Below are positions 4,944 to 37,628 of a DNA stretch of 64,000 nucleotides, piece after piece; position 1 is the first letter of the stretch; each line of letters starts with the position of its first letter. Origin of the DNA: an uncultured Flavobacteriaceae bacterium (GTDB lineage Bacteria > Bacteroidota > Bacteroidia > Flavobacteriales > Flavobacteriaceae); assembly GCA_947494715.1 (NCBI GenBank), contig CANLWG010000015.1, positions 113,323 through 177,322 on the forward strand, written 5' to 3'. Both the position numbers and the translations under genes were made by a program. A model generated the notes under the pieces. The model was not told the DNA's origin. It did no database searches and was given only the letters and a program-made list of their open reading frames with translations.

Positions 4944-4955
4944 ATTGTATACAAT
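4944..4955. promoter_or_regulatory. Candidate GntR/FadR-type operator ATTGTATACAAT
   Basis: Perfect 12-bp palindrome between divergent genes 4807(-) and 5020(+); matches FadR-subfamily TNGTNNNACNA. Confidence 0.6.
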
Positions 4956-5019
4956 AATAACAATTTTTTATATATTTTTATGTAAAAACTAAGCAATAGC
5001 ATTTTAACACGATTTCAAA

Positions 5020-6387
5020 ATGGATAAACGTGAGTTCTTAAAACTTTCAGGAAATATTTTGGCGGTATCAATGCTATCTCCCATCCTATCCTGCCGTGAG
5101 GCTGCCGCCCCGTCTGCCAAAAAAACTTTGGGGGCATCTCGGGCCAATTGGGCAAACAACCTTATTTACGATAGCAATACCTTTTACGAGCCTCGAAACA
5201 TTGGCGAACTACAACAGATTGTAAAGGAAAACAAGAAAATCAAGGCCCTGGGCACAAAACACTGTTTTAATAAAATTGCAGATAGCAGATTTTCCCATGT
5301 TTCGATAAGAAACATGAACCGCATTGTTTCAGTGGATAGTCGCCAAATGACGGCAACCATTGAGGGAGGTGCGAGCTACGGACAGATTTGCACTGCCCTG
5401 CATGAAGAGGGCTATGCGCTTCACAATCTTGCCTCGCTGCCACATATTTCGTTGGCCGGAGCCATTGCAACGGCGACCCATGGCTCCGGGGTTTCCAACA
5501 GTAATTTAGGTGCAATGGTCAGTGCGCTGGAATTTATAAATACCGACGGAGATCTAGTTACGTTATCGCGAAACGGTCACGGTGATGAATTTTCAGGAAT
5601 GATCACCCATCTCGGCGGATTGGGAATACTTACCAAACTCACTTTGGACCTTCAACCTACTTTTCAAGTAAGGCAGGACGTATACCAACACTTACCCGTA
5701 TCCAATCTTCTTGAAAATTTTGAGGCCATTATGGCCGGTGGATACAGCGTAAGTCTATTTACCGACTATCAGTCAGATCAGGTCAACCAAGTATGGGTCA
5801 AATCCAAAGTAGCTAAAGATGATCAATTGCCCACAGAATATTTCGGGGCAATCTCTGCCGAACGGGACATCCATCCCATCCTTGAACTATCTGCAGAAAA
5901 CTGTACCGCCCAAATGGGCGTACCCGGACCATGGTTTGATCGGCTTCCCCACTTTAAGATGGATTTCACTCCCAGTAGTGGAAAAGAACTGCAATCCGAA
6001 TATTTCGTTCCCCTGGACAAAGGTCCCGCAGCTTACGAGGCGATACAAAGCCTAAAGGATGAAATAGCTCCCTATCTCATGATTTCCGAAGTTCGCACCA
6101 TCGCTGCAGACAATCAGTGGATGAGTCCCTGTTATGAGCAAAAAAGTGCAGCTTTTCATTTTACCTGGCAACAGGATTGGAAGGGTCTAAAAAAAGTGCT
6201 TCCCCTTTTGGAAAGTAAACTGGAGCCCTTTAATGTGCGCCCACACTGGGGAAAGATGTTCACTATGACACCTGCAAAAATCCATTCCCTCTATCCTAGG
6301 CTTGTCGATTTTAAAACCTTCCTCATGGACCATGATGCCAATGGAAAATTCCGGAACGACTTTTTGCAAAAATATCTTTATACTTAG
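5020..6387 (+). CDS. FAD-dependent alditol/sugar-1,4-lactone oxidase-like (AldO/ALO family), exported
   Basis: FAD_binding_4 pattern (GTKHCFNKIADS, HISLAGAIATATHGSG) and C-terminal ALO-like HWGKMFT; Tat/lipoprotein-like N-terminus KREFLKLSG...SPILSC. Confidence 0.8.
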   Translation: MDKREFLKLSGNILAVSMLSPILSCREAAAPSAKKTLGASRANWANNLIYDSNTFYEPRNIGELQQIVKENKKIKALGTKHCFNKIADSRFSHVSIRNMNRIVSVDSRQMTATIEGGASYGQICTALHEEGYALHNLASLPHISLAGAIATATHGSGVSNSNLGAMVSALEFINTDGDLVTLSRNGHGDEFSGMITHLGGLGILTKLTLDLQPTFQVRQDVYQHLPVSNLLENFEAIMAGGYSVSLFTDYQSDQVNQVWVKSKVAKDDQLPTEYFGAISAERDIHPILELSAENCTAQMGVPGPWFDRLPHFKMDFTPSSGKELQSEYFVPLDKGPAAYEAIQSLKDEIAPYLMISEVRTIAADNQWMSPCYEQKSAAFHFTWQQDWKGLKKVLPLLESKLEPFNVRPHWGKMFTMTPAKIHSLYPRLVDFKTFLMDHDANGKFRNDFLQKYLYT

Positions 6388-6402
6388 GTTTTGTTTGCTT
6401 AA

Positions 6403-9400
6403 TTACTCCAAGGGCGAGCCAACGGCACTATTCACCCCAAAGCAAAGGAGTGGAAGGTTATTACGTGCAATTATAAGATGCGGAATACCATTCATTTCAA
6501 TGGAAACGACATCCCTCACCTGCCCAAAGACGCTAAGTCCGGATTGTTCATTGGAAAGCGCCCTAAAAGTTCCGGAGCTATTGCCCTTTAACAAAGTTCC
6601 CTTGCTCGAATCCAGTCGCCCAAACTCGGGTTTTAGGCCATGAAAATTACCTCCCAACCACAAATCGATTACACCATCTAAATCCAGATCCTTGGCAACA
6701 ATACCAAATACAGGAGCCACTTGCGCTGCGAGCGGCAAGGCTTCTATCCGAATCACGCCTTCATCGTTCCAGGCAATACTGGACTCCAAGTTGACCGCAC
6801 TATAGGAAATCACATTTCGCCGCTCTTCTTCTGTCAATAAAGATTCATAGGTTTTTTCGGCATATTCCTTATACCGCAAATTGTGTTTTTTCAAATGGGG
6901 CAGTTGCGTGGTAAGGTCCATTTTGGTGGCAAAGGGATAAGCTTGACCATCCAAGGGCGGGTACCAATTCAAAATGAAGTCACTTTTTCCGTTCGTATCA
7001 AAATCTTTAACATAGAGGTTCAAGGGTTTCTTCACGGAAGCCTTGAATTTAGAATTTAGACCCCAGTTTCCCAATATATAATCGTCGTCCCCATCACCAT
7101 CCAAATCCGAAGCCTCTATGGTCAGCCACCAGCCAGAGGATGATTTCAGTCCCGGCAAGGTCTTCTTTCGTAATTGTCCATTACCATTCTCAAAATAAGT
7201 TATAGGAAGCCATTCACCGGATACCCATAAATCCATATCCCCATCCCTGTCGGTATCGCTCCAAACTGCGTCGGTAATCATTCCCAATTCTCCAATTTCC
7301 CTAGTTGTAATATCGGTCCATTGGCCGTTACCCTCGTTTCTGAATACATAGCTTCTAGGTTTTAGACCATAATTCCCTGGAATAGCACGGGCCCCAATAA
7401 AAAGATCCTGGTCACCGTCCCCATCAATATCCGTATTCTTAATACATGAGAAATTACCTGTGGCCATTGGTGCCTTTTCCGATGTTTTCAGGAATTTACC
7501 CGAACCATTATTTTCGTAAAAGCGTAGCCGATAGGAATGCGCTTCCTTTTTCAATTCGTTGCCGCCCGACCCTAAAAGTATGTCGTTGTCGCCATCTCCA
7601 TCCGCATCAAAAATAGCTCCACAAGTAGTCTCGAAGATAGTGTCCGTTTCCGATGATGAAATAGTATTCAATCCTCGGGATTTCCAATAGTCCCCGTTTT
7701 GGATAAACACTTTGTCCATTTCCTCCGGACCTCCCCCTGCTACAAAGTCTTCTTTTCCATCGCCGTTTAAATCCCCTTTTATAATTGGTGGGCCTTCTGT
7801 GGACAACATTCTAGGCAATAGATTTTCATGGTCAAAATCGTTGAAGTTGTTTTCAATATGATCACGATTTCCCATCAGTACTTTCTCGGTACATTCCTCA
7901 AAAAGGGGCCTATTGGACAATCTCTCTTGAAGAACGGGTTCTTTAGCATTGGACTGAAGAACTTTTAAGGTTTGGTTGGCGGCCACATTGTGCAGGGTCT
8001 CGGTGGTCAAATCGGGCCACGTTATTTGGATTTCATCCACAACAGGGTTTGAGCCGATGCCAAAATTCAAAATGGGTGTCACGGCACTTTGAAATCCGCG
8101 CGAGGTGAAATTCTGTAGTACTTGTATCTGATTTCCTATTTTAGCTTTTACTTCAGCTCCAATACCGTATGGGTTCTTGCCCGAACCTTCCAATCTGATC
8201 TTTAGAAAATTGTTCTTGGAATTATTTCGATATAGGTATGCAGGCATATTCACATTGTTCACTATCATATCCAAATCTCCGTCATTATCCAAATCCCCAT
8301 AGGCCGCCCCGTTGGAAAAGCCGGGATTCCCCAGCCCCATGATATTCGCCCTGTTCTTGAACATTGGAATTTGGCCCTTCCCGCTATTTACAAAAGCATA
8401 GTTGGCCAAGGGTTTGGAGGGCAGGAATTCTACGAAGTCAGACCAATCGAACCTGCCCTTTTGCATGACTACTTTTTTAATTTCCTCCTTGTCACTTATA
8501 AAATCCGAAAAGTCCAAATCCATTATTTCGCGATTTAAACCATTGGATACAAATATGTCTTTCCAACCGTCATTGTCAAAATCAAAAATCAATGCTCCCC
8601 AACTCCAATCCGTGGCGGCGACATTACTTAAATGTGCCACTTCTTGAAATGTACCCTCTCCATTGTTTAACTGAAGGCAATTTTGCAATACTTGATAATG
8701 AAAATTTGCTTTGTTCTTCGCATCCCTTAAATGAAAGGGTTCAAAATACGTCATGGTCTTTAACCTATAGTTGCTTCCTGGAAGCATATCCGTGGTAAAA
8801 ATCTCCATCGATCCGTCATTGTTGAGGTCACCTACATCGGAGCCCATACTGGAAATGGGACAAATGCTGACAGAACCATTCAATTCTTCGGAGAATGTAC
8901 CATCGCCATTATTGAAATAAAGATAATCCCGCTCCCAAAAATCATTACTGATATAAATATCGGTGAGATGGTCCCCATTAAAATCACCTGTAGAGACCCC
9001 TAGCCCAAATCCTATGGCACTGTTATAAATGCCAGCTTCCGACGTAACATCCTTGAAGTGGTCGCCTTCATTTCTCAAAAGCTTATCCCCTCCCAAGTTA
9101 TCATGTTCCTCGCGGGATATGGTATAGAGCTCAATCTTTGAGGGATCCTTAAAGGAATTATTTAGGATATAACAGTCCAGGTCGCCGTCCTGGTCATAAT
9201 CGAAGAAAGAGGCATGGGTAGTGAAACCTTTATCATTCAAGTTATACTCCCCTGCCCTATTGCTAAAAGTATTGTCCTTGTTATTGATAAACAATTCATT
9301 TTCCCGGCTATCCCCCTTCAAATCACCGGAGTTGCACACATAAATATCCAGCCAACCGTCTCCGTTAACATCGGCCATGGTAACACCGGTGCTCCAGGCC

Positions 9401-9957: not shown

Positions 9958-10002
9958 TGTAAAAAAACTAACTCAAACTACTAAACAACATTTTTGATTT
10001 CT

Positions 10003-11694
10003 TTAATATCCCGGATTTTGTGTATACAGGGATCCACCTTCTACCTTGTTCAATTCGATCTGAAGCGAAGGTATGGGCAATCGCATATGGCGATCTTCAA
10101 AACCATTACTGTCCGAAAGATATGCCCTAGTTTCGGCCTCTGTGGTCAGATAATTATTGAGCACCTCCGAGGCCACTCCCCATCTTTTTAAGTCGAAAAA
10201 TCGATGTCCTTCCAAAGCAAGTTCCAACCTTCGCTCATGACGCACGGCCTTACGTGCTAAATCGGTATCCGTCCAAGGGTCGTCATAGGTTCCAACATTG
10301 TATGTGGCCCATGTTATTCCTGAGTCATCCAAAGATGTACTCAACCCGTCCGGTCCTATGGCGGATTGCCCGGCACGTGTTCTCACCATATTTACGAGCT
10401 CCCGGGCACGCTCTAAATTGCCCAGTTCCACCTCGGCTTCTGCCAACATCAACAATACGTCGGCATACCTGATTATCGGAACGTTAATAGGTGATAATTG
10501 TTCTGGCCTCCACCCTACCAGACTCGCATCCCCGGGTGCCGGAAGAAATTTCTTTTGCGAATAGGGCCCGGCCCAGTTTCTATCACGAATCCAAAAGGAT
10601 TGATGCGGTCCCCATTCCTTAAATGGCACATCATCACGTCCCACGGTCCAATCCAATCTTGGGTCTACAGGATCTGTGATGGTAACATCGGAATCGTCAA
10701 AGGTGTCCAAAAGTGGTAAGCCGTTGGGATCGGTTTTATGGGCATTGACCAAATTTTGTGAAGGCTGATGAAAACCGCAGCAGCCGAATGGGCTGCCTTC
10801 ATGTGGATAGGCTAACCTATCCCCCCAATTACCATTGGCCCCATTGGTAGATCCGTCATTGGCCGACGCCTGAATTGAAAACAAATGTTCGCCGGCATTC
10901 TCCAGTTCCGCGGTAAATATATCAGCAACCGATGGCAGAAGTTCGTAAAGTCCACTATTGACCACCAGGTCGAATTCTTGCTTGGCATTGGCAAAATCCT
11001 GATTGTACAAATATGCCTTGCCAAGGTACGCCCTAGCGGCTCCTTCAGAGGCCCGGCCAATCTCCCCTTGGGTCGCTGGCAAGTTATCTGCAGCAAACTG
11101 TAAATCCTGAATAATCAAGGAAATAACGTCATCATCGGTATTAGATCTCTTTTCTAAAGGATCATAGGTCTCTAACATGTAGGGCACGTTTACCCATAGT
11201 TTCCAAAGATCAAAGTGGTAATGGGCGCGTAAAAACCTGGCTTCAGCTGCAATGGGGTTTGGATTAGCGATGTCCTCTGCATTTGCTAGAAGGTTCAATG
11301 CCGTATTGGCCCTTGAGATGCCCTCGTACATTGCCCTCCATTTGGAATCGAAATAGGTGTTGCCCGGGGCCCAACGAAAAAGCTCGACCTCTAAAATCTC
11401 AGGTTGGTCACTTGGTGTAGAGCCTTTATGGGCATCGTCGGAGGCAACGCTCCCAAAAATCCAGTTGCTACTGGAATTTGGCCATGGCTGGCTTTGAAAG
11501 GCACTGCCATCATTTTGCCACCCGTCCAACATAGAGTATGCGGAAATCAGAGCCGCCTGAACACCGGTCTCATTTTCTAAAACTTCCTGTGAGAAACTGG
11601 CCTGAGGGGCAACCTCGAGAAAGTCCTCCGAGCATGATATTGCTATTATACCAGCTAACAATAAGGCTGAAATTATTACTTTTATCCGTTTCAT
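10003..11694 (-). CDS. susD: SusD/RagB family outer-membrane nutrient-binding lipoprotein
   Basis: LAGIIAISCSEDFLEVAPQ; SusD-like repeats (AEARFLRAHYHFDLWKLWVNVPYM, RYADVLLMLAEAEVELG, HERRLELALEGHRFFDLKRWG). Confidence 0.93.
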   Translation of the reverse strand: MKRIKVIISALLLAGIIAISCSEDFLEVAPQASFSQEVLENETGVQAALISAYSMLDGWQNDGSAFQSQPWPNSSSNWIFGSVASDDAHKGSTPSDQPEILEVELFRWAPGNTYFDSKWRAMYEGISRANTALNLLANAEDIANPNPIAAEARFLRAHYHFDLWKLWVNVPYMLETYDPLEKRSNTDDDVISLIIQDLQFAADNLPATQGEIGRASEGAARAYLGKAYLYNQDFANAKQEFDLVVNSGLYELLPSVADIFTAELENAGEHLFSIQASANDGSTNGANGNWGDRLAYPHEGSPFGCCGFHQPSQNLVNAHKTDPNGLPLLDTFDDSDVTITDPVDPRLDWTVGRDDVPFKEWGPHQSFWIRDRNWAGPYSQKKFLPAPGDASLVGWRPEQLSPINVPIIRYADVLLMLAEAEVELGNLERARELVNMVRTRAGQSAIGPDGLSTSLDDSGITWATYNVGTYDDPWTDTDLARKAVRHERRLELALEGHRFFDLKRWGVASEVLNNYLTTEAETRAYLSDSNGFEDRHMRLPIPSLQIELNKVEGGSLYTQNPGY

Positions 11695-11711
11695 TTTAGT
11701 CTTTATTTATA

Positions 11712-14700
11712 TTAGAATTGTGCGCTGAAACCTATTTGAAAAACTCGATTGGAAGGGTAATTGGAAACATCGAATCCATTCCAAAGATCGCCATTTCTAT
11801 TGCCGGCCCCAAAATTGGATATGGCGGGATCCAAGCCATCATAACCGGTAATGGTAAACAGGTTCTGGGCCTGTAGATACAATCTAAAACCATCCAATAC
11901 ATTCCCGAATACCTTCTTGGGAAAGGTGTAGCCTAACTGCATATTCTTTGCTCGTAGGTAGGATCCGTCATCCACATAAAATGTACTGGGATCGTTACTA
12001 AAAGTATCACTGGCATCAGGTCTTGGATAACTGGCATCCAGATTATCCGGTGACCAAGCATCCAGAACGGCATCTATACGAACGTTTGAATTGAATTCGT
12101 GAAAAACATCGAATGTGTGCGTATAGTTGAAAATCTCGTTGCCCACAGAAGCAAACAATAGCATGCTAAAATCAAAGTTTTTGTATTCGAAACCTAAATT
12201 TACCCCTAGCGTAAAGTCTGGGTGTGGGTTGCCTATAATTCCTTTATCATCATCATTGATAACCCCATCATTATTGATATCTACAAACTTGATCCTTCCA
12301 AGATCCGCACCGTCCTGGACGGCATGAGAGTCTATCTCGGCCTGGGAATCAAAGAATCCATCCGCCGTTAAGCCCCAAAAAGAGGACAAGGGGCTACCGA
12401 CCTGTGCCGCTACGATGGGCAATCCTATCCTTGAATCGAATCCTGTGGGAAAGAATATATCCGTATCTCCATCAATTGCTATCACCTCATTCACATATCT
12501 ACTAAAATTGAACGCGGTGTTAAATCTAAATTCATCCCCTATTTTACCACGATATTGCAATCCTATATCCACTCCGTTATTCTCAATTTCGCCAAGATTT
12601 ACAAATGGTGGGGAAGACAATCCTGCTGTTGCGGGCAATGGAGCTTCAACCAATAGGCCATCAACTGTTCTTTTGTAGATGTCCACTACCAAGTTGATCT
12701 TACCTTGCCACATGGATAAATCCAAGCCGAAGTTGCTACTTATATTCTCTTCCCATCGTGTGGCGTTATCCCCTCTAGCTTGAAGACTGAATCCCCTGAC
12801 CAATGAGGTATTTGCACCTGTAATGTCATAAAACGTCGATCCTTGATCACCTCCATATCTATTGAAAGCATTACCGGAAGGAATCGCCTGATTCCCAGTT
12901 TTACCCCAACTATAACGAAGTTTCAGGTCATCCAGCCATTCCGCATTTTCGAGAAATGATTCTTCGCTTACACGCCATCCTGCACTGAATGCCGGGAAAT
13001 TACCCCATCGCGTATCCGAGCCAAAATTTGAGGAACCGTCCCGTCTATAAGTTAAACTGATCAGATACTTGTCGTCAAAGGAATAATCCAGTTTAGCAAA
13101 AGCCGATGCCAATTTATTGATATCACCCGTGGAGAATATGGTCCTGGTATCACCGTTGGCCAAGCCTGGTTGCAAGTACCATAGACTTTGATCGTCCAAA
13201 AAGAATTGTTGCAATCCTCCTTGGGCTTCCCTAAACGTAGTGCTTACGGCCTCATAACCCAGTAACGCCTGTATACTGTGCTTTTCCCCTAGCAAAACAT
13301 CGTATGCCAATGTATTGGTCCAGTTCCAATTGTTCCTTTCGTTCCAGGTCTCCTGCAATTCGTTTTGATCAATGGGAGGGGGAACAACATCCGTGTTATC
13401 ATATCTGCCAAAAAATACTCCAAGTCCATGGGAAATATCAACACCATAGGTTGTTCTGGCCTTGAGGCCTTTCAAAAGTTCAAATTCGAGAAAGGCATTT
13501 GCCAAAATCCTAGTTTCCACAAATTCGTTGTCCTTATTTCTTGTAAGTGCGGCCACCGGCTGTCTAACCGAAACTCCTTCTGCCTGACCGGCAAATTGTT
13601 CTCCTGTGATATCATATACATTTGCAATTGATGCCGTACGCATGGCCGCATATACCATGCCTCCTTCTACCTGATTTCCATTACCTATAAAATCACCACC
13701 ATTCCTTGAGGAACGACTGACCAAAAGGTTTTCGCCGATAGTAAGTTTACCTATTTTGAATGACGTATTGGCTCTTAATGAGGCCCTTTCAAAATAGTTA
13801 TGGATCATTGTACCCTCGTGATTAAGGTAATTGGTAGAAAAATAATAGTTTGTTTTTTCCGTGGCTCCAGAAACCGATACATTATGCTCTTGGATAAGAG
13901 CAGGATTAAAAATCTCGTTGAACCAATCCGTACCCTGCTTGTTGGCCCTATCTACCGGCCTATCGGGAAATCGGTAAAACGCTTCTTCGTCAAACTGACC
14001 AATCCTATTGATTTCATTGGTGACCGGGTCGCGATAGGGTCGTATATAATCCGGCAATATTCCACGACCTTCCGAATAAGGATCCTGATCTGAAGGTGTT
14101 ATTCCAGCATTTTCCCATCTGTCCCACTTAAATTGAGACATGAGCAGAGGATCCTTTACCATATAATCCATATCATTGACCGGGGTAGCAATGCCAAAAT
14201 AGGCATCATATTGCACCTTGGGCTTGGTACCTACCTTACCTTTCTTTGTGGTTATTATAATCACCCCATTATTCGCTCTGGCCCCATAAATTGATGCTGA
14301 TGCAGCGTCCTTTAGAACCTGGATACTTTCTATATCATTTGGGTTAAAAGCGGTATTAAAGGCATCTTGTACGGGCACCCCGTCTATGATATACAGCGGA
14401 TCATTATTCGTAAAGGATCCGAATCCGCGAATCCTGATGTTGGAACCCTCCCCAGGCTCCCCAGAAGTAGAAACGGTGAGTCCGGTAGTCTGCCCCTCAA
14501 GCTTTTGAGCGAAACTCGGGGCTGCAATTTTATTCATTTCCTCAGTATCGACCACGGCTACCGCTCCAGTGATATCTCTTTGCCGTTGAGAGGTATAACC
14601 GGTCAAAATCACTTCATCCAATGCCAAGGAATCGGGCACCATACTAAAGTTTATGGTACTCCTTCCCTCAATACCAACCTCCTGAGTGGTATATCCAACA

Positions 14701-14996
14701 TAGGATGCAATCAAAATTTCGCTACCATCCGGGACATTTATCTCATAATTACCATCAAAATCGGTAACGGTTCCTATTGAAGTTCCTTTTACAAGAATGG
14801 CGGCCCCTAGCAGCGGAACGCCATTTTCATCAGTAACCGTTCCAGAAATGGTACGATCTGTTGTTTGCCATACCATAAGGTTCGCTTTCATAGCATAGGT
14901 GGATGCCACATTCATAAGCATGCTTAGGTAGAACAATAAATAACCGGTTCGCTTAGCAGTCCTTGAAAAAAGACCCTGTGTAAAAAATGGTTTCAT
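11712..14996 (-). CDS. susC: SusC/RagA TonB-dependent transporter without STN domain
   Basis: CarboxypepD_reg-like region (TISGTVTDENGVPLLGAAILVKGTSIGTVTDFDGNYEI), plug (IRIRGFGSFTNNDPLYIIDGVP), beta-barrel C-terminus ending QIGFSAQF. Confidence 0.95.
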   Translation of the reverse strand: MKPFFTQGLFSRTAKRTGYLLFYLSMLMNVASTYAMKANLMVWQTTDRTISGTVTDENGVPLLGAAILVKGTSIGTVTDFDGNYEINVPDGSEILIASYVGYTTQEVGIEGRSTINFSMVPDSLALDEVILTGYTSQRQRDITGAVAVVDTEEMNKIAAPSFAQKLEGQTTGLTVSTSGEPGEGSNIRIRGFGSFTNNDPLYIIDGVPVQDAFNTAFNPNDIESIQVLKDAASASIYGARANNGVIIITTKKGKVGTKPKVQYDAYFGIATPVNDMDYMVKDPLLMSQFKWDRWENAGITPSDQDPYSEGRGILPDYIRPYRDPVTNEINRIGQFDEEAFYRFPDRPVDRANKQGTDWFNEIFNPALIQEHNVSVSGATEKTNYYFSTNYLNHEGTMIHNYFERASLRANTSFKIGKLTIGENLLVSRSSRNGGDFIGNGNQVEGGMVYAAMRTASIANVYDITGEQFAGQAEGVSVRQPVAALTRNKDNEFVETRILANAFLEFELLKGLKARTTYGVDISHGLGVFFGRYDNTDVVPPPIDQNELQETWNERNNWNWTNTLAYDVLLGEKHSIQALLGYEAVSTTFREAQGGLQQFFLDDQSLWYLQPGLANGDTRTIFSTGDINKLASAFAKLDYSFDDKYLISLTYRRDGSSNFGSDTRWGNFPAFSAGWRVSEESFLENAEWLDDLKLRYSWGKTGNQAIPSGNAFNRYGGDQGSTFYDITGANTSLVRGFSLQARGDNATRWEENISSNFGLDLSMWQGKINLVVDIYKRTVDGLLVEAPLPATAGLSSPPFVNLGEIENNGVDIGLQYRGKIGDEFRFNTAFNFSRYVNEVIAIDGDTDIFFPTGFDSRIGLPIVAAQVGSPLSSFWGLTADGFFDSQAEIDSHAVQDGADLGRIKFVDINNDGVINDDDKGIIGNPHPDFTLGVNLGFEYKNFDFSMLLFASVGNEIFNYTHTFDVFHEFNSNVRIDAVLDAWSPDNLDASYPRPDASDTFSNDPSTFYVDDGSYLRAKNMQLGYTFPKKVFGNVLDGFRLYLQAQNLFTITGYDGLDPAISNFGAGNRNGDLWNGFDVSNYPSNRVFQIGFSAQF

Positions 14997-15177
14997 ACTT
15001 ATTTATTGGTTTTTGTAAAAAGAAGTTCTCACGAAGTTCTTTTAAGGTTGAGTAAAGCACCCCCATATTGGTTCTCGTTTCTTGTTTGACAATGAGGGTT
15101 TTGATTATATAAAAGTGTTTAGGTGTTTCAATTGTATTATCTCAAAATCGAATTATGAATAACAAATATATATATTT

Positions 15178-15187
15178 TTGTATACAA
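15178..15187. promoter_or_regulatory. Candidate operator TTGTATACAA upstream of susC
   Basis: 10-bp palindrome, 7 nt upstream of a minus-strand TATATTTG (-7 type) element at 15163-15170. Confidence 0.6.
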
Positions 15188-15448: not shown

Positions 15449-15458
15449 TTGTATACAA
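15449..15458. promoter_or_regulatory. Candidate operator TTGTATACAA between GntR gene and susC
   Basis: Same 10-bp palindrome (aaattGTATACaaaaatt). Confidence 0.5.
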
Positions 15459-17108: not shown

Positions 17109-17495
17109 TTACACATCAGGAAAATCTATTTCCTCAAAGAACAAATAGTTGTCCAAACTTGTCGGAGGTGCAAAAAAACAAATGACCTTCATTTCCAAAT
17201 CACTTGTATTATGGAGCATATGCACTTTATTTTTAGGGAATAAAATACTGGAACCTTCCTTTACCTCACCAACTTGCCCATCTATCAAAACCCTGCCGCT
17301 ACCTTTTATAATATGTATCAATTCTTCGCCATGCGGATGTGAGTGGGCCGGCCTCACCTTTTCCCCAGGGGGTACCCTAATTATACAGGCGGACAAGTAT
17401 TTGGCTCCCAATATTTTCTCGTTCGCAATCCACTTTAAGTGTCTTCCAGGTAGAGTGGCCTCATTTCCTTCGTTATAATGTAGTATGTTCTTCAC
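17109..17495 (-). CDS. Cupin domain protein
   Basis: Cupin motif RPAHSHPHGEELIHIIKGSGRVLIDGQVGEVKEGSSILFPKNKVH. Confidence 0.88.
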   Translation of the reverse strand: MKNILHYNEGNEATLPGRHLKWIANEKILGAKYLSACIIRVPPGEKVRPAHSHPHGEELIHIIKGSGRVLIDGQVGEVKEGSSILFPKNKVHMLHNTSDLEMKVICFFAPPTSLDNYLFFEEIDFPDV

Positions 17496-17501
17496 GGAAT
17501 G

Positions 17502-19592: not shown

Positions 19593-19598
19593 TTCGAG

Positions 19599-20354
19599 TT
19601 ATAATATAGACCAACCTCCATCCACAAAATAAGTAGCACCCGTTACAAAGGAGGCCTCATCCGATGCGAGAAAATATACTACATTGGCCACTTCCATGGC
19701 CGTTCCCATTCTGTTGAACACGCTTTTGCCATTCAGAATGCCTTCGGTCTCCTCGGGGTCCGGGGAATCATTGATGGATCCGCGTAGCAGTGGGGTATCT
19801 ATGGCTCCCGGAACGACACAGTTGACACGGATGTTTTTTTCCGCCAAATCCATGGCCATGGACCTCGTTAGCGTATCTATGGCTCCCTTGGAGGAAGAGT
19901 AGGCCGCCCTTTCGGGTACGGACCTAAAACCTAAAATAGATCCTGTATTTACCACGGCACCTTTTCCCTGCTCCATTATCAGAGGTACAAAGGCACGAGA
20001 CATATAATACATGCCTTTTAGGTTAACATCGTATAATTTTGTCCAATCCTCTTCCGTACAATCCAATATACTTCCCCTAACTTCAATACCCGCGTTATTA
20101 TGCAGTACATCTACCCTTCCCAGTTCTTTGCTGATTTTTTCCAATGCAGCTTCGACCTGGGACTTATCCGAAATATCACATTTACAGAAGACACCTTTCC
20201 GGCCCAATGACTGTATTTTTTCCTCGGCCTTTTTGCCTTTGACCTCATCAATATCTATAAGGCCTATGGCATATCCCTGTTTTGCAAATTTTATCGCGGA
20301 TGCCAGTCCCAATCCAGACGATGCTCCACTGACTACAAGTACTTTATCACTCAT
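19599..20354 (-). CDS. SDR family oxidoreductase
   Basis: GASSGLGLA Rossmann motif, HNNAG, AAYSSSKGA (YxxxK), VTGATYFVDGGWS. Confidence 0.93.
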   Translation of the reverse strand: MSDKVLVVSGASSGLGLASAIKFAKQGYAIGLIDIDEVKGKKAEEKIQSLGRKGVFCKCDISDKSQVEAALEKISKELGRVDVLHNNAGIEVRGSILDCTEEDWTKLYDVNLKGMYYMSRAFVPLIMEQGKGAVVNTGSILGFRSVPERAAYSSSKGAIDTLTRSMAMDLAEKNIRVNCVVPGAIDTPLLRGSINDSPDPEETEGILNGKSVFNRMGTAMEVANVVYFLASDEASFVTGATYFVDGGWSIL

Positions 20355-20386
20355 CGCAACACTATTTTTTGTTTAAGGATTATTTT

Positions 20387-21454
20387 TCAATTCGGTTTAA
20401 CGGCCACTTTCATTGCACCATCTTTTCTGCTCTCATAGGTCTCTAGGGCCTGGGCAAAGTCTTCGAGCTGAAATCTATGTGTGAACAATGGGGTCCAGTC
20501 TATTCTACCTTCCTGGACAAGCCGCAGAGCCTCCTCCGCAGTATTTGGATTGGCCCTTACCCCAACTATTTCTATTTCATCCAAGACTATTCTCTTCATG
20601 GGCAGTATAGGTTCTTCATGCGGAATGCCTATTACAGCGATAATCCCCCCTTTCGCGGCGGCATCACAGGCCTGTTGTATGGATTTAACGGTACCTGCAC
20701 ATTCCGTAATGGCGGGTACTCCCAAACCATTGGTTAATTCCATCACTTTTTGAACCACATCGATTTCCCTGTAATTGATGGGAATGGCACCCAGCTCGGC
20801 CGCCATATTTAAGCGATCCCCACTTCCTGCGATGATTATTCGGCCTGCCCCAAGGGCTTTGGCACAGAGTACGGCCATCAAACCCTGTGGTCCCGTACCC
20901 ATTATGAGAATATCGTCCCCGGGCTGAAGACGCGTTCTTTTTACGGTGTTCAATGCGATGCTCAGTGGGTCGATACACGCAGCCATTTCCAAATCCATAT
21001 CTTCAGGAATCTTATAAATGGCTTTAACTGAAGTACGCATATACTGGGCATAGGCCCCGGGCGTATAATGACCATATTGACGATGGCCTGTACTTTCATC
21101 GCCATAATTCAAGCATAAGTTGTACCGGCCAATCAGACAATTGCGACAATAGCCACAACCTACATGCGATATGGCACACACACGATCTCCTTTTTTCCAG
21201 CCCAGTTTTGATGCTTTGTTGCCTACAAGTTCTACCGTCCCGGACCATTCGTGTCCTGGAACAAACGGTAACGATTTAGGCCAGAATCCAGGAAAATCCC
21301 CTGCTATGATATGTGGATCTGTGCCACATATATAGGTGGTGTCCACTTTACACAAGACCTCGTCCGGATCAATCTCTGGAACCTCGATTTCCTGTATGCT
21401 AAAATCCCTTACGCCTTCCAGGACCAGGGCATTCATTTTTTTTGGTATACTCAT
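20387..21454 (-). CDS. Zinc-dependent medium-chain alcohol dehydrogenase
   Basis: GHEWSGTVELVG, CGYCRNCLIGRYNLC structural-zinc motif, MGTGPQGLMAVLCAKALGAG. Confidence 0.93.
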   Translation of the reverse strand: MSIPKKMNALVLEGVRDFSIQEIEVPEIDPDEVLCKVDTTYICGTDPHIIAGDFPGFWPKSLPFVPGHEWSGTVELVGNKASKLGWKKGDRVCAISHVGCGYCRNCLIGRYNLCLNYGDESTGHRQYGHYTPGAYAQYMRTSVKAIYKIPEDMDLEMAACIDPLSIALNTVKRTRLQPGDDILIMGTGPQGLMAVLCAKALGAGRIIIAGSGDRLNMAAELGAIPINYREIDVVQKVMELTNGLGVPAITECAGTVKSIQQACDAAAKGGIIAVIGIPHEEPILPMKRIVLDEIEIVGVRANPNTAEEALRLVQEGRIDWTPLFTHRFQLEDFAQALETYESRKDGAMKVAVKPN

Positions 21455-21467
21455 TCTTTTCTAAATT

Positions 21468-22487
21468 TTATTTCCAGTGAACCATTGGTAATCCCGGTAC
21501 GGGGGACTTGAAATAGGGAATGGATTTACCCTTAAGCGATCCTATGTAAACGGTACCCAAATCTGGCCCTCCAAAGGTGACGCTTGCCATCCAGGGAGCA
21601 ATCCCCCTACCTGTTGCAAATAAGACTTCTTCGGTTACACTATTGCTGAAAAATGCTTTTTCCAAAGCCTCCACCTTTTCGGGGTCCCCTTCGTCCAAAA
21701 GCATTTTCATATCACCTTCCGGGGTTAGGACAAACAATTTATCGGAATACACTGTAGTCCCCCATAAATTTCCGTAGGTATCAAAGGCAATGCCATCCGG
21801 CCATGCCCCCTTTCCCAGTTTGGATGGTCCAAAAACCTCCCGGTCCACCAAATCACCCTTCTCGGTAAGCCTCATTCTGGATATGCAGCCACCGGTGGTC
21901 TCAACGATGTAGAGATACTCCTCAGTTTTATCAAACCTTATTTCGTTCGTGAATCCAAAACCTTCAGCCATTATCCTAAAAGCGCCATCCTCATATCTGG
22001 CAACATAGCCATCCTTGAGATCATGCTTTAATGCGTGCATCCAATTCTTTGTTTTGGTCGAAATCGTAATCCATATTCGATTCCTTGAATCCCTGAGCAC
22101 AAAGTTTACCTTACCGATTTCTTCCCCTTCTATGGAATCGGCCATCACTACGGTGTGACCTTTTCGCGTCATACGTTCCAGACGATCGGTGCCGAAATTG
22201 GAAATAAGAATATCCCCATTGTCGGCAAAGGCCAGCCCATTGGGCAATGTACCTTCAAGATATCTGGTGGCCTCCGAACCGGCATCCTCAAAGAAATCCG
22301 AACCGGATTGGGTCACCAGCTCCTGTTGCCCATTGAGACCTATGCGCATGACACCTCCCCTGGCATCCGCCGACCATAGTGTTCCATCCGGTTCCGCTAA
22401 AATGCATTCGGGTCGTTGTAAGTCCTTTCCGATGAACTGAATATTAGAGGTGTCCAGTTCAAAATCTAGTATTGGATTTCGTTGCAT
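21468..22487 (-). CDS. SMP-30/gluconolactonase/LRE family protein
   Basis: PECILAEPDGTLWSADARGGVMRI, LPNGLAFADNGDILISNFG, WPDGIAFDTYGNLWGTTVYSDKLFVL; no obvious signal peptide. Confidence 0.88.
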   Translation of the reverse strand: MQRNPILDFELDTSNIQFIGKDLQRPECILAEPDGTLWSADARGGVMRIGLNGQQELVTQSGSDFFEDAGSEATRYLEGTLPNGLAFADNGDILISNFGTDRLERMTRKGHTVVMADSIEGEEIGKVNFVLRDSRNRIWITISTKTKNWMHALKHDLKDGYVARYEDGAFRIMAEGFGFTNEIRFDKTEEYLYIVETTGGCISRMRLTEKGDLVDREVFGPSKLGKGAWPDGIAFDTYGNLWGTTVYSDKLFVLTPEGDMKMLLDEGDPEKVEALEKAFFSNSVTEEVLFATGRGIAPWMASVTFGGPDLGTVYIGSLKGKSIPYFKSPVPGLPMVHWK

Positions 22488-22497
22488 TCTAATTGAG

Positions 22498-24039
22498 TTA
22501 AGAGCTTAATGCGCCGTCCCAGGTATCAATTTTTATATTTTTCAATTCCTCTTCGTCGAACCATCTTGTAGTTACCGCTTTGGACTCGGTAAAAAATTTA
22601 ATGCCGTCCTTGCCCATGGTATGTAGGTCGCCAAAAAAGGAATTTTTATGCCCTGTGAACGGAAAAATGCTGGCTGGAACCGGAATACCCACATTTACGC
22701 CCACCATTCCCGCATGGGTCCTGCGGGCAAATTCCCTGGCATAATGTCCGTTTTGGGTAAAAATGATGGATCCATTTGCATATGGATTGGCATTCATTAC
22801 GGCAATCCCTTCCTCAAAATCCCTGACCCTTTTTATGCTCAGTACCGGACCGAAAATTTCTTCATCCCCTACGGCCATCCCTGGTTTTACGTGGTCAAAA
22901 ATATTAGGGCCCAGATAGTAACCTTCCTCATGACCTGGTACATTAATTTCCCTGCCATCCAATACTAATTCTGCCCCTTCAGCCACACCGTTCTTTATCC
23001 TTCCGCTGACCAACTCATGATGACCTTTGCTCACCAAAGGACCCAACTGTGTGGATTTATCGTAAGCGGGTCCCACCTTTAAAGCCGAGGCAAACCCACT
23101 TATAATATCGGAAAGTTCATCTGCTATCTTTTCCTGTACGGTTATTACGGGCAAGGCCATGCATCGTTCGCCCGCACAGCCATACGAGGCACTGATTATT
23201 CCCCTTGCCGTACGTTCCAAGGGGGCATCGTCCAGGACAAGCGCATGATTTTTGGCCTGACAGAGTGCCTGAACCCTTTTGCCATGGGCGGCGGCCGTGG
23301 CATAGATATGCTTTCCTACTTTTGTAGAGCCGACGAAAGTAATACCCCTAACATTTTCATGGGTTATAAGTCTTTCAGCATCCTCATTTTTGCAGGTCAC
23401 CAAGTTAAAGACCCCTTTTGGTAGCCCTGCCTCATACAGTAATTCGGTCATTCGCATGGCCGTCATCGGTGTGACATTCGACGCCTTAAGTACCATGGTA
23501 TTACCCGTAGCAATACACAAAGGCATCATCCATCCCATTGGGATCATTGCCGGAAAATTGAATGGTGCTATCCCTATGAATACCCCCAATGGCTCCCGAT
23601 AGAGTACCGTATCAAATCCTTTGGACGTATTCATCAATGATTCGCCCATCATTAACGAAGGTGTACCGCACGCCAACTCTACCACCTCCTTTGCCTTAAG
23701 CACATCACCTACAGCTTCATCCCATACTTTCCCATTTTCCTTACATAAGGTTAGTACGAGTTCATCAAAATGTCGGTCAATCAAATCCCTAAACTTATAG
23801 AGCACCTGAACCCTTTTCAATACCGGGGTATCCGCCCATTCAGGAAATGCCTGATGAGCGGATTGAATGGCTTGGTCCAATTCACTTTGGGTACACATCG
23901 GCACTTGTGCAAGAACCTTACCTGTACTGGGGTTGTGAATGTTTTGATAATTTCCTGAGGAGGAATCGGTCCATTCACCATTAATATTCAGCCTTAGCTT
24001 TTTGATTTCGCCTTCATTCAAAATTTCGGTCTCTGCCAT
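22498..24039 (-). CDS. mmsA: CoA-acylating methylmalonate-semialdehyde dehydrogenase family (MmsA/IolA-like)
   Basis: ALDH fold with FVGSTKVGKHIYATAAAHGKRVQALCQAKNH and GCAGERCMALPV, typical of MMSDH. Confidence 0.85.
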   Translation of the reverse strand: MAETEILNEGEIKKLRLNINGEWTDSSSGNYQNIHNPSTGKVLAQVPMCTQSELDQAIQSAHQAFPEWADTPVLKRVQVLYKFRDLIDRHFDELVLTLCKENGKVWDEAVGDVLKAKEVVELACGTPSLMMGESLMNTSKGFDTVLYREPLGVFIGIAPFNFPAMIPMGWMMPLCIATGNTMVLKASNVTPMTAMRMTELLYEAGLPKGVFNLVTCKNEDAERLITHENVRGITFVGSTKVGKHIYATAAAHGKRVQALCQAKNHALVLDDAPLERTARGIISASYGCAGERCMALPVITVQEKIADELSDIISGFASALKVGPAYDKSTQLGPLVSKGHHELVSGRIKNGVAEGAELVLDGREINVPGHEEGYYLGPNIFDHVKPGMAVGDEEIFGPVLSIKRVRDFEEGIAVMNANPYANGSIIFTQNGHYAREFARRTHAGMVGVNVGIPVPASIFPFTGHKNSFFGDLHTMGKDGIKFFTESKAVTTRWFDEEELKNIKIDTWDGALSS

Positions 24040-24078
24040 TTTTAATATTTGGTTATATGAGTTCTTACTTCTGGATAT

Positions 24079-24990
24079 CTAGGATTTGAAACTGTAACCA
24101 AAATCCGCAAGATATTTTTTGCTTATTTCCGCTGCTTCTTTAGGGGTCCGCGGCATCTTCTTGGAATAGTCCAATTCTGCCATGACCATACCTTTGTAAT
24201 CCGAATTCTCCAAAACGTCCAGCACCTCCTTAATCTTTACTTTTCCCATGCCCAAGGGCGCATATCCCAAATAGTACTCTCCCCCATCGAAATCCTTGAG
24301 GTGAATGTGTTCCGTAATCGAAATAAAATCCTTCAGTACCTGTACCGGATCCCCACCTCCTTTTTTTAGTTGGCCAATGTCCGGCCCAAATCTTACATAC
24401 TTTGTGTCCACATTGTTCATCAAGGAATAAACTTCATCGGGCAGTTCTATGGGGGTATCCGTATGTTGGTGAAATGCAAAGGTGATTCCCTCATCGGTAA
24501 CCCTTTTGGCATATTCGTTAAATGCATTGATAATGGTGGACTTGTATTCTGCATATTGGTAATTGTCCACTTTTTTCCGATTCATGCTTGCACTGAATTC
24601 CATGACATCACCACCGTATTTTTTACAGAGTTTTGCCCATTTCACCAATTTGTCCCCTTCTTCCTTTATGACCCTTTTATCCAGAACGTTGGCCATACAA
24701 AAAGCAGATTTAAGCGGTAGTTGGTACTTTTCTATCAATGTTCCGATACCTCCTTCTTTCTTTTCATAGTCTTCGATAACCCTGCCAAAGGTCTCAAAGG
24801 CATTAAATCCAAGTTCCGACATACCTTTCATGGCAGGTTCCAGATCATCAGTGCCGTACCCCCATGTGATGTAGGTATACCCGATATCTAATTTGGTATG
24901 ATACTTCAGCTTAAAGTCAGGAATTGAGGGCATCATTAATCCCAGGGCCCCGACTCCGGCCGTATGTAGAAAATCTCTTCGTGTTCCCAT
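24079..24990 (-). CDS. Sugar phosphate isomerase/epimerase-like TIM barrel, Tat-type signal
   Basis: MGTRRDFLHTAGVGALGLMMPS; TIM barrel pattern (FAFHQHTDTPIEL, FGPDIGQLKKGGGDPV, HIHLKDFDGG). Confidence 0.8.
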   Translation of the reverse strand: MGTRRDFLHTAGVGALGLMMPSIPDFKLKYHTKLDIGYTYITWGYGTDDLEPAMKGMSELGFNAFETFGRVIEDYEKKEGGIGTLIEKYQLPLKSAFCMANVLDKRVIKEEGDKLVKWAKLCKKYGGDVMEFSASMNRKKVDNYQYAEYKSTIINAFNEYAKRVTDEGITFAFHQHTDTPIELPDEVYSLMNNVDTKYVRFGPDIGQLKKGGGDPVQVLKDFISITEHIHLKDFDGGEYYLGYAPLGMGKVKIKEVLDVLENSDYKGMVMAELDYSKKMPRTPKEAAEISKKYLADFGYSFKS

Positions 24991-25025
24991 TTGTCTTTGC
25001 TTTAATAATTCGGCTATTTAAAATG

Positions 25026-25484
25026 TTATTCCGAGGCTATCTTATCACCATAAACAGTAAAAAACACACCAACTAATAAGATGAAGGCACCCAGTATCTT
25101 CATTCCGGTAATCTTGCTCACCGGTGACCCCAATATTCCATAATGGGAGAATACCAAACCACATAAAACTTGCCCGGCCAACATGATTATCATTACCGGA
25201 CCTGCACCCAATCTTGGAATCAACCAGGCAATGCCAAAAACAAGACAACCGCCCATGGCCCCCGCCGTAAACAGCCAAAAGGGTACTTCCCTTAACCGTT
25301 CAAAAAATTGTGGCTCCCAGCCGGTAAGACCTATAAGTAATGCGGCCACTGCCCCAATTACCCAAAATAAGGCATTGCCCATACGTGGATTGTTCACAAT
25401 ATTCCCGACACTTCCATTCATCGCCAAATGGAGACAAAGAACAATCCCAATTACAAAACTTAACAATATCAATAGTGCTTTCAT
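25026..25484 (-). CDS. DMT-superfamily small transporter, YdcZ/DUF606-like
   Basis: 152 aa, about five hydrophobic helices; AMNGSVGNIVNNPRMGNALFWVIGAVAALLIGL and AGQVLCGLVFSHYGILG. Confidence 0.75.
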   Translation of the reverse strand: MKALLILLSFVIGIVLCLHLAMNGSVGNIVNNPRMGNALFWVIGAVAALLIGLTGWEPQFFERLREVPFWLFTAGAMGGCLVFGIAWLIPRLGAGPVMIIMLAGQVLCGLVFSHYGILGSPVSKITGMKILGAFILLVGVFFTVYGDKIASE

Positions 25485-25701
25485 CTGTTGGTATTTATCA
25501 ATTATTTAAAGTCAGATGTGCCCGTTATGTTTAGGCCGGTATAATCTTGCCCGTCGGCAGACAGGTACGCCAACCAACCTCTCGGTCAGTACCAATAATT
25601 GTTATGGCTCATTTCACAACCACGAACTTGATTTAAATACAACAAGCTATAGCTTTTGCATTTCTTAATCAATCATAATTGTACTTCAAATATACTAATT
25701 T

Positions 25702-25711
25702 TTGTATACAA
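25702..25711. promoter_or_regulatory. Candidate operator TTGTATACAA upstream of the 25484->17109 operon
   Basis: Palindrome 7 nt upstream of minus-strand TATATTTG (25687-25694), the same spacing as at susC. Confidence 0.65.
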
Positions 25712-25883: not shown

Positions 25884-28052
25884 TCAATCCGGCAATTTGA
25901 ATGCCATGTACTTTCCTAGAAAGCCACTGTTTTTGTTCCCCGTTACAGCGATGACTACATATTGTTCACCATCAATCTCATAGGTAGTAGGCGTTGCCAG
26001 TCCGGGCCCGGGTAGTTGATATTCCCACAACAGTTCGCCACTGTCCTTGTCAAACGCACGGAATTTAGCATCTTTGGTAGCTGCAATAAAAATAAGTCCC
26101 CCCGCAGTTACGACAGGACCTCCTTGATTGATCGTTCCCGTAGGGGGAATTCCCTTTTTTGTCAATTCCTCATATTCTCCCAACGGTATTTGCCAAAGTA
26201 TCTCCCCTTTGTTTAAATCAACTGCATTTAAAGTTCCCCAAGGCGGTTTAATGGCCGGATACCCTTCCTCATCCGTAAAGGTTATATATCCCCGATTGGT
26301 ATATTTTAGTCTTTTGGTCAGGTTCTTTAGATTTTCGGTGCTGTCCAAAGTAGTTTCCTTTTCGGATTCCCACGACTCCGTCTTTTCTACGCTATTTTTT
26401 TGAATATCATCCAATCCGAGCAAATAAGCTGCGATTGCCGACTTTTCCTCTGCAGTCACATAGCTCATTGCGGGCATTAGGCCCCTGCCATTTTCGATAT
26501 ACCCTACTATATTGGAATGGGAGAGTTTTTCCTCGATTCCGATCAATGAGGGAATATAGTGCCCTCCTTCGCGGGACGGGCCGTGACATGTGGCGCAATA
26601 TGTTTGGTACAACTGAAATCCATTCAGGTCATTTGATGCCAGTTCGGCTTCTAAATCGATTAATTTTAACAACCAGGGCACATCATTTACGTTAATTATC
26701 AAGGTTCCGGTTTCCTCATCAATGGCCCCGCCCCCCCAGTTGGCGCCCCCGTTATAAAAGGGTTGGACAATGACTCCCTCAGTATTGGGCGGTGTGAATA
26801 TTTTGGTTTGATATTTTTTTAGCTCCTTCCTTACATAGGCATTGGCCTCGGGAGAAATATCTGTGGCCAAATCCTCCGTTAACTCCTGTCTCGTAAATGG
26901 TGGAGGCTTTACGGGAAGTGGTTGGGTCGGCCAGGTAACCTCATCCGTCATCGAGGATTGAGGCACCGGGACTTCCTTGATCTCAAAAAGCGGTTCCCCG
27001 GTTATCCTATTGAACAAATAAACGTATCCCTGCTTGGTAGGTTGAGCCACGGCATCTATCTCCTGACCATCATGGACCACCGTGGTCAAATTAGGCGGAC
27101 AGGACAAATCCCTATCCCATAGATCATGATGCACAAATTGATAATGCCAGATTCTTTCACCTGTCTCAGCATTAAGGGCCAAAAGGCAATTTGAAAACAA
27201 GTTCTGCCCTGTTCTATTGGCTCCATAAAAATCATAGGTTGCGGAACCCGTCGGAACATAAACGATGCCCCTTTCCACATCAAGGCTCAATCCGCTCCAA
27301 CTATTGGCTCCGCCAATATATTTGTATGCGTTTTCGGGCCACGTATCATAACCAAAATCCCCTGGTTCCGGTATAGTCCGAAACACCCATTCCAATTCAC
27401 CGGTAATGGCATTAAATGCCCTAATGTGACCAGGGGCCGCAGGCAAAAACTCGGACACCGTAGACCCGGCAATAATCAAATCCTTGTACACAATACCAGG
27501 GGAGGTAGCCCGTACACCCTTTATTTCTTGGTCACCCAATCCCGTGGAATAACGTATTCTACCATTTTCCCCAAAACTATCGACAATTTTGCCCGTTTTG
27601 GCATCTACCGCATATAGGAATTCAGAATACACATAAAAAATTCGACTATCCGATTCTTTTTCCCAATACATTAATCCCCTGGCGGATGACTGGTTACCTA
27701 TAGAATCATATTCCTTTAGATCTAGATACCATTTCTCCTGGCCGGTAAGGGCATCCAGGGCAACCATATTTCTACTGGCGGTGGTACCATATAAGACCCC
27801 ATTTACCATCAATGGATTGCACTTCACCTGCCCATGGGTTTCCGTCGGTCTCATATCATAGGACCAGGCCACTTCAAGCGATTCGACGTTTTCCTTATTT
27901 ATTTGCGATAATTTCGAATATTTGTTGCTGGAAGGCGATCCGTTGTAACTTCTCCATTCGCTAGTCCCCTTGTCCCTTGAAGATTCTTCCGGGGTACAGG
28001 CCACTATGGTTAAGAAGATTATAAAGGTTGAACTAAACCTGAAGATTCTCAT
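25884..28052 (-). CDS. PQQ-dependent (quinoprotein) dehydrogenase with inserted cytochrome c domain, lipoprotein
   Basis: IVACTPEES signal; WSYDMRPTETHGQVKCNPLMVNGVLYG, GANWGGGAIDEETGTL, heme site YCATCHG. Confidence 0.9.
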   Translation of the reverse strand: MRIFRFSSTFIIFLTIVACTPEESSRDKGTSEWRSYNGSPSSNKYSKLSQINKENVESLEVAWSYDMRPTETHGQVKCNPLMVNGVLYGTTASRNMVALDALTGQEKWYLDLKEYDSIGNQSSARGLMYWEKESDSRIFYVYSEFLYAVDAKTGKIVDSFGENGRIRYSTGLGDQEIKGVRATSPGIVYKDLIIAGSTVSEFLPAAPGHIRAFNAITGELEWVFRTIPEPGDFGYDTWPENAYKYIGGANSWSGLSLDVERGIVYVPTGSATYDFYGANRTGQNLFSNCLLALNAETGERIWHYQFVHHDLWDRDLSCPPNLTTVVHDGQEIDAVAQPTKQGYVYLFNRITGEPLFEIKEVPVPQSSMTDEVTWPTQPLPVKPPPFTRQELTEDLATDISPEANAYVRKELKKYQTKIFTPPNTEGVIVQPFYNGGANWGGGAIDEETGTLIINVNDVPWLLKLIDLEAELASNDLNGFQLYQTYCATCHGPSREGGHYIPSLIGIEEKLSHSNIVGYIENGRGLMPAMSYVTAEEKSAIAAYLLGLDDIQKNSVEKTESWESEKETTLDSTENLKNLTKRLKYTNRGYITFTDEEGYPAIKPPWGTLNAVDLNKGEILWQIPLGEYEELTKKGIPPTGTINQGGPVVTAGGLIFIAATKDAKFRAFDKDSGELLWEYQLPGPGLATPTTYEIDGEQYVVIAVTGNKNSGFLGKYMAFKLPD

Positions 28053-28981
28053 TTAAAATAGGTCTTGGTCAATTCTGATTCAAAACCAACTTCGGGTACT
28101 TCTGCTCCGGCGGTCCAGATTATGGCATTGAGTACAAATTTTCTAAAATCAGGGATATACATATTTTCATGATTGTGACATCCAGTAAAACCAAATCCAC
28201 GACCTCCATCGGGTCGTTCCATTGCCCAGGCAATGGTTTCCGGCTTTGGATCTTCCTTGGGCAATGAAGACTTTAGAATAGGTATTATTCGGTTAGGATC
28301 CTCACCAAAGTACATGCGGTGATAGTACTCGGCTACCGAAGTCCATGGCTTTACCCCATTGAGTATTGGATGTTCGGGACTTGCCAATTCCACAGTCTCC
28401 GTAGCCGTGGTCCCAGGGGTATTGGAATCTCCGTCTACATTGGACTTTCCATCCAAATAATACCCCCCTACCCATTTTGAGTACCGATCTTGTGCAATTG
28501 GATGATCTACCCATGTCGCATAATGAAGGACCACTAATCCCATGCCTCCGTCCATTTTAGCATCAAAGTACTTCAGAAATTTTTTGTAATCGGCATCTTG
28601 ATACTCTTCGGCCCTGGGATTGGGCGGAAATATACCGTGCCATTCATGGGCGTACCTATCCGCACTGGTATGGACAACAACAACATCAACATCCTCCAAA
28701 CTGCCAATTGGCGGTCTTTCCCCTACATACATTTGCACATCGATATCAATTCCGTTCTTCCCTTCCCTCAAACAGTCCCTGACAATAAGGAGATCCTGGA
28801 TGTATTTATGGCATGGTTTGCTGTTGTCGCTACAATGATCATTAGGGCCTGCGATCAAAACAATTTTATACGTTGAAGGGGGATGGTCAGTTGGTTTACT
28901 GGGCGTTGATTGACAACCCGCGAACACAGATGCTGTCATAATCCAAGCCAGAAAGAGGCTGCCGTTCTTTTTGAAAATCAT
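28049..28981 (-). CDS. ThuA-like domain lipoprotein
   Basis: Probable start MIFKKNGSLFLAWIM at 28981; SVFAGCQS signal; VLIAGPNDHC, GLVVLHYATW, FGFTGCHNHENM. Confidence 0.8.
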   Translation of the reverse strand: MIFKKNGSLFLAWIMTASVFAGCQSTPSKPTDHPPSTYKIVLIAGPNDHCSDNSKPCHKYIQDLLIVRDCLREGKNGIDIDVQMYVGERPPIGSLEDVDVVVVHTSADRYAHEWHGIFPPNPRAEEYQDADYKKFLKYFDAKMDGGMGLVVLHYATWVDHPIAQDRYSKWVGGYYLDGKSNVDGDSNTPGTTATETVELASPEHPILNGVKPWTSVAEYYHRMYFGEDPNRIIPILKSSLPKEDPKPETIAWAMERPDGGRGFGFTGCHNHENMYIPDFRKFVLNAIIWTAGAEVPEVGFESELTKTYFK

Positions 28982-29003
28982 AAAAAATATATTATTATAA
29001 TAT

Positions 29004-29031
29004 AATATTGCATACAAATGTATGCAATATT
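29004..29031. promoter_or_regulatory. 28-bp near-perfect palindrome, candidate operator of ThuA/PQQ operon
   Basis: AATATTGCATACA-AA-TGTATGCAATATT: 13-bp perfect arms; left part TTGCATACAA differs from TTGTATACAA by one base. Confidence 0.6.
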
Positions 29032-29625
29032 TTAATAAATAGCACATTAGGCATCTATTTTTTTAGAAAAATGAACATGGAGCGAAGAGATTCCCAGCGA
29101 TGAGAGAAATTTGCGCATGCCTTGATGGCCTTGCCGCCGCAAAATTCTCTTGACTTTAAGAGAGTTTGGCGCATCAATTTACCAAAGAATTCTTTACGCT
29201 AATTTGAGATTCGGTAGTTTGGCCCGACATCATTTTGATGAACTACAAATATTGTTGGGGACACTATCCAAGCCCAATTTGAAAAGGCTAAATCGAAATT
29301 TATTTTCAATCATCGGTCTTCAAATCTAAACGACCAAAATTTGCGTAGCCGTTGCGTGAATATCCAACTACCGAAAGCATTTGGCTAAAATCTTAAATTC
29401 CGATACTGGAGAGACTATTGTGAAATAATTACTAAATTACCAAAAAAAATGCTTTTATCCCCACTTCGACATCGTTCAAATTTTGTACGACAATCTTTTT
29501 CAAATGGCGTTTCATAGCTAAAGCCAAAGTTTAGTCTTATTTACTCCTCTCAAAAAATGGAAAATTAGACTATTTCGAATAAAATAATATTTATATGTGT
29601 ATTAATATTCAATTTTATATTATTT

Positions 29626-29635
29626 TTGTATACAA
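29626..29635. promoter_or_regulatory. Candidate operator TTGTATACAA 20 bp upstream of oiaC-like gene
   Basis: Palindrome overlapping TATTTTTG (29621-29628), a TAnnTTTG-type element. Confidence 0.65.
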
Positions 29636-31303: not shown

Positions 31304-31304
31304 A

Positions 31305-37627: not shown

Positions 37628-37628
37628 A

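Follow-up and report, generated by a model that had tools for sequence, protein, structure and literature searches.

Organisation of the locus and its candidate promoters

The window (the whole 64-kb stretch of DNA analysed) carries a gene for a GntR/FadR-subfamily regulator, a susC-susD pair, genes for a TIM-barrel protein and an FAD-linked sugar-lactone oxidase, the DMT-MMSDH-transketolase and thuA-PQQ operons and the apiose operon oiaC-apnO-apsD (Table 1). Five exact matches to the 10-base palindrome TTGTATACAA lie among these genes at precisely the positions given in the initial annotation, whose claim of intergenic placement near operon starts was borne out, also for a sixth copy that it had missed, 1.2 kb left of the window (C15:112097) and before an ASPIC/FG-GAP gene. 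Also missed was the variant double site before the thuA-PQQ operon, whose promoter geometry matches that of the oiaC site. The thuA start is overextended in the ORF list, and ATATTGCATACATTTGTATGCAATAT, composed of two adjacent 10-bp TTGTATACAA variants, lies upstream of the likely start.

Table 1 Features of the cluster, with candidate operators and promoter elements.
Feature	Position	Strand	Remarks
TIM-barrel protein gene (-) and FAD-linked sugar-lactone oxidase gene (+)	3908–6387		flank the 4945 site
Candidate operator TTGTATACAA	4945–4954		between divergent TIM-barrel/DUF4432 genes (-) and FAD-linked lactone oxidase gene (+)
susC-susD pair	10003–14996	-	behind the 15178/15449 sites
Candidate -7 box (sigma-ABfr) TATATTTG for susCD	15163–15170	-	offset +17; consensus PMC7366714
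Candidate operator upstream of susC	15178–15187		7 nt upstream of -7 box
Second candidate operator between gntR and susC	15449–15458		271 bp from the first
GntR/FadR-subfamily regulator (GntR HTH + FCD), candidate repressor	15536–16207	-
Candidate operon DMT(YdcZ)-IolE-like-MMSDH-SGL lactonase-Zn ADH-SDR-transketolase-like-cupin	17109–25484	-	behind the 25702 site
Candidate -7 box TATATTTG for DMT operon	25687–25694	-	offset +17
Candidate operator upstream of DMT-MMSDH-transketolase operon	25702–25711		7 nt upstream of -7 box
ThuA-like and PQQ/cytochrome c dehydrogenase operon	25884–28970	-	behind the variant site
Variant double candidate operator, minus strand TTGCATACAT and TTGTATGCAA	29008–29027		-7 box TACATTTG (29015–29022) inside
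Candidate -7 box TATTTTTG	29621–29628	+	overlaps oiaC site
Candidate operator, 20 nt upstream of oiaC start codon	29626–29635		overlaps -7 box
Apiose operon oiaC-apnO-apsD	29656–32327	+	orthologous operons in other genomes

TAnnTTTG at -7 is a promoter element of Bacteroidota (PMC7366714), and exact boxes of this form recur at fixed distances from the sites, at offset +17 for 15178 and 25702 (where the 7-nt gap to a minus-strand TATATTTG reported earlier is exact) and at -5, overlapping the site, for 29626 and 29008; the probability of two such shared offsets by chance was p = 0.0004 (flank shuffles). No good -7 box was found beside the 15449 site. Placement inside the core promoter fits a repressor. 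The ABC transporter/GH140 operon (32319–40010) has no clear site, so that apiose uptake may be separately controlled.

The gaps at 16208–17108 (beside gntR) and 29048–29600 (before oiaC) contain stops in every frame and look like decayed coding sequence. Immediately to the left of the cluster, two tyrosine integrase genes (L020, 9648–12603) lie close to a KDPG-aldolase-like gene; together with an IS110 transposase (60724–61713) they suggest a mobile region. A further polysaccharide cluster begins with paired genes for an ECF sigma factor and a FecR-like anti-sigma factor (46471–48340). A search of 395 other Bacteroidota genomes at E <= 1e-90 gave no match to the transketolase-like protein (17502–19592); its gene, unique in the sample, was dropped as a marker for sister clusters, and the operon may be of extra-phylum origin.

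Frequency and clustering of the palindrome

Dinucleotide shuffles of the window give an expectation of 0.08 for TTGTATACAA, and shuffles of its intergenic DNA 0.017 (largest count, 1). Any palindromic 10-mer reached five copies in only 1 of 1000 shuffles of this intergenic DNA, in which no second palindromic 10-mer occurs even twice. In the whole genome (5.97 Mb), exact matches number 14, vs 11 for the reversed control; TTGTATACAA is thus not globally over-represented but strongly clustered, with 6 of the 14 copies in 31 kb (C15:112097–142957). All six cluster copies are intergenic and near gene starts, while 6/8 off-cluster copies lie in coding frames (Fisher p = 0.009), and the other two precede an M14 peptidase gene and a gene for a LytTR regulator. 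Equal frequency in unrelated intergenic DNA, which would speak against a local regulon, was therefore not found, only 2/14 copies lying there. No paper on a regulator was among the matches listed by a literature search for TTGTATACAA.

The GntR-type regulator

The protein encoded at 15536–16207 has a GntR HTH (PF00392, 1.7e-16) and an FCD domain (PF07729, 1.2e-21), both above cut-off, and matches solved FCD structures, including 3sxy/3fms. It contains D134, H138, H182 and H204 (Asp-x3-His, His, His), conserved in the Allomuricauda ortholog described below, a pattern that we take to be the FCD metal/carboxylate site. No NCBIfam cut-off was reached for the named GntR equivalogs LldR, NanR, PdhR, UxuR, CsiR and PhnR (best, 96.7 bits vs 271.5).

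In a survey that analysed no Bacteroidetes member of the FadR subfamily (PMC4494728), the spacer separating GT from AC is usually 3 nt long, but 2 nt long in the sites of GntR, HpxS, HypR, MdcY, PrpR and UxuR. The palindrome here, TTGT-AT-ACAA, agrees with the subfamily pattern of T(T/G)GT...AC(A/C)A boxes with a 2–3 nt spacer, but not with the consensus TNGTNNNACNA quoted in the initial annotation, whose 11 bp include a 3-nt spacer; in the present site, of 10 bp, GT and AC are 2 nt apart. TGGT half-sites are favoured by Arg at HTH position 28, and a G there is disfavoured by Pro at position 40 (PMC4494728); the 15536–16207 protein has Thr28 and Pro40, in agreement with TTGT half-sites. These recognition residues are non-discriminating, being common to homologs with no nearby sites, and the palindrome was assigned to this protein by co-occurrence. 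An autoregulatory site, common though not universal in the FadR/FCD subfamily, was not found (TTGTATACAA is absent from the 900 nt upstream of gntR), and the promoter of the Allomuricauda ortholog likewise lacks TTGTATACAA.

As in the systems of PMC4494728, a GntR HTH and an FCD domain are here combined with an A/T-rich palindrome with TKGT/ACMA boxes, a 2-nt spacer and a local catabolic regulon; unlike in those systems, the sites lie on sigma-ABfr-type promoters, the regulon includes susCD and apiose genes, and there is no autoregulatory site.

Distant homologs and a second FCD-GntR

A peptide-pattern scan of genome contigs identified no close GntR orthologs, and no protein exceeded 36% identity in searches of about 300 genomes of the family and 396 of the phylum. 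Among 17 loci of distant FCD-GntR homologs (26–36% identity), five carry a perfect TTGTATACAA, against an expectation of ~0.008 per 3.6-kb locus at the density of the present genome. Four of the five loci (L024, L027, L028, L034) have it immediately ahead of the gntR start, as part of TGTATATTGTATACAATATACA-like palindromes; in the fifth, L022, it precedes a dehydrogenase-gntR pair, at a distance of about 1.1 kb from gntR. In the tree, the nearest relatives of the 15536–16207 protein are other homologs, which have no motif nearby; the association is thus a family-level property. Bacillus subtilis GntR, which controls the gluconate operon, has the operator ATACTTGTATACAAGTAT, with the same 10-bp core as TTGTATACAA; this serves as a lead only, and pathway and phylum differ.

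Other FCD-GntR genes (L042–L045), preceded by TGTATATTGTATACAATATACA-like palindromes, stand first in operons that also encode a DAPDH_C-type dehydrogenase, DUF6917 and a B12-binding protein; these operons resemble ornithine fermentation genes and are likely a separate autoregulated regulon. The present genome also encodes a second FCD-GntR (L015, contig C3), upstream of an MFS-like transporter gene, with TTTTGTATACCGTATACAAAA just before its own gene (C3:287337–287353); the 17-bp palindrome core occurs once in the genome.

Apiose loci and their candidate regulators in other genomes

Among 395 genomes of the class, ApnO was found in the present genome only. With an ApnO alignment as query, 80 apiose loci from other genomes were collected, 54 of them with usable oiaC upstream regions. 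TTGTATACAA is present in two of the 80 (L077 and L087); the L087 copy was dismissed as lying inside coding sequence. In L077, from an Allomuricauda metagenome-assembled genome (MAG), a perfect TTGTATACAA lies 67 nt before an apiosidase gene, accompanied by an imperfect -7 box that again has the offset +17, and a one-mismatch site, TTGTATACAT, lies 18–20 nt before oiaC. This is the only one of the 54 oiaC upstream regions with a site within one mismatch. The MAG, searched for GntR after the motif had been seen, encodes a 57% identical ortholog whose gene adjoins two apiosidase genes and sulfatase genes; this MAG is the sole genome found with a true ortholog, was picked by its motif and may be affected by mis-binning. 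Near-sites around this gntR occur at background density only. On its contig (L155) the ortholog gene stands beside two GH140-type apiosidase genes, sulfatase genes and a gene for a beta-lactamase-fold protein, which possibly serve a sulfated apiose-containing polysaccharide. The PQQ gene also neighbours the apiose operon in L077 (53% identity), in support of its assignment to the pathway.

Poritiphilus flavus (G213) and Ulvibacterium sp. (G219, same genus as the present genome) have oiaC-apnO-apsD and lack both a GntR ortholog and the site. The comparison of orthologous loci that had been proposed thus finds site and GntR together in the Allomuricauda MAG and both missing in these two genomes. 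In both, an AraC gene is divergent to oiaC (63% identity between the two proteins), with relatives beside oiaC in L074, L075, L098 and L131. AraC-type regulators adjoining oiaC in other Bacteroidota (L067, L068, L074, L075, L098, L131) are, like the GntR here, candidates for local control of the apiose operon; they belong to a different family, and the present genome, where the GntR site is present, has no ortholog (best match, 37%). Remnants of the AraC gene were sought in the window and none was found. The chances appear evenly balanced that a regulator replacement has taken place in this lineage, in which control of oiaC-apnO-apsD by an adjacent AraC, the arrangement of several other Bacteroidota, gave way to a GntR/TTGTATACAA repressor acting across the cluster, with susCD, the periplasmic oxidation system and the catabolic operon with the transketolase-like gene also under its control.

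Proposed regulation and alternatives

The initial annotation had proposed that the FCD-GntR co-regulates the left cluster and the apiose genes. This idea is supported by the clustering and intergenic placement of TTGTATACAA, by its recurrence at apiose genes, among the loci sampled, only in the genome with the 57% identical ortholog, by two relatives that have the operon but neither motif nor GntR, and by TTGTATACAA at promoters of distant homologs. TTGTATACAA is thus very probably the binding site of a locally encoded GntR-type regulator, and we put at roughly 0.8 the probability that the 15536–16207 protein is a local pathway regulator that binds it, represses five or six operons and is released by a carboxylate. 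While the sites, their clustering, their promoter geometry and their co-occurrence with GntR across genomes were determined computationally, GntR binding, repression and the effector are what we infer.

The same GntR might instead activate, or loop between the two susC sites; some FCD proteins act as activators, and the two susC sites, 271 bp apart, are separated by about 25.8 helical turns. Sites on the -7 box or in the core-promoter spacer are in the position of a repressor, however, and these modes of action seem unlikely. Alternatively, the sites are real operators bound by the paralogous FCD-GntR on C3, or by both proteins, as both would recognise GTATAC; Pro occupies position 40 in the paralog as well, and TTTTGTATACCGTATACAAAA in the promoter of its gene is built from the same half-site. 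That element, however, has a different 17-bp arrangement in a single genomic copy, TTGTATACAA is absent from the 20 kb around the paralog gene, and the cluster sites surround the gntR at 15536–16207 rather than the C3 gene, which makes a role for the paralog improbable.

The AT-richness of intergenic DNA and some flanking letters shared by the 15178 and 25702 sites could point to chance or to another cause of the repeats, such as duplicated promoter fragments or base composition. The flanks of the remaining sites are unrelated, shuffles and genome clustering speak against chance repeats, and a second genome that encodes a GntR ortholog again has the motif at oiaC, leaving this origin very improbable.

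The 15536–16207 protein is most likely a carboxylate-responsive repressor overlapping core promoters. As proposed, a GntR dimer would bind TTGTATACAA at promoters in the 31-kb cluster, as well as the weaker variant at 29008, the target operons being those for the ASPIC protein, the TIM-barrel protein/FAD oxidase, susCD, DMT-MMSDH-transketolase, thuA-PQQ and oiaC-apnO-apsD. When substrate is lacking, the dimer would sit on the -7 region or just upstream of it and, with its sites so placed, should therefore block RNA polymerase. A small carboxylate derived from the substrate, with an apionate-like acid as the most obvious candidate, would bind the FCD domain and release GntR, so that uptake through susCD, periplasmic oxidation by the FAD oxidase and the PQQ dehydrogenase, and the breakdown of apiose would rise jointly.

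The regulator is of the known FadR-subfamily type; an open-access literature search for apiose with GntR found nothing. The common signal groups genes for uncharacterised proteins (FAD lactone oxidase, PQQ dehydrogenase, IolE-like, MMSDH and transketolase-like) into one candidate pathway, and the comparison with AraC-associated loci points to a conserved operon on which a possible exchange of regulators can be put to the test. For marine Bacteroidota, TTGTATACAA and the FCD-GntR are a concrete candidate operator and regulator for the use of apiose, a plant sugar whose genes, if the proposal is true, would be switched together with the whole gene set.
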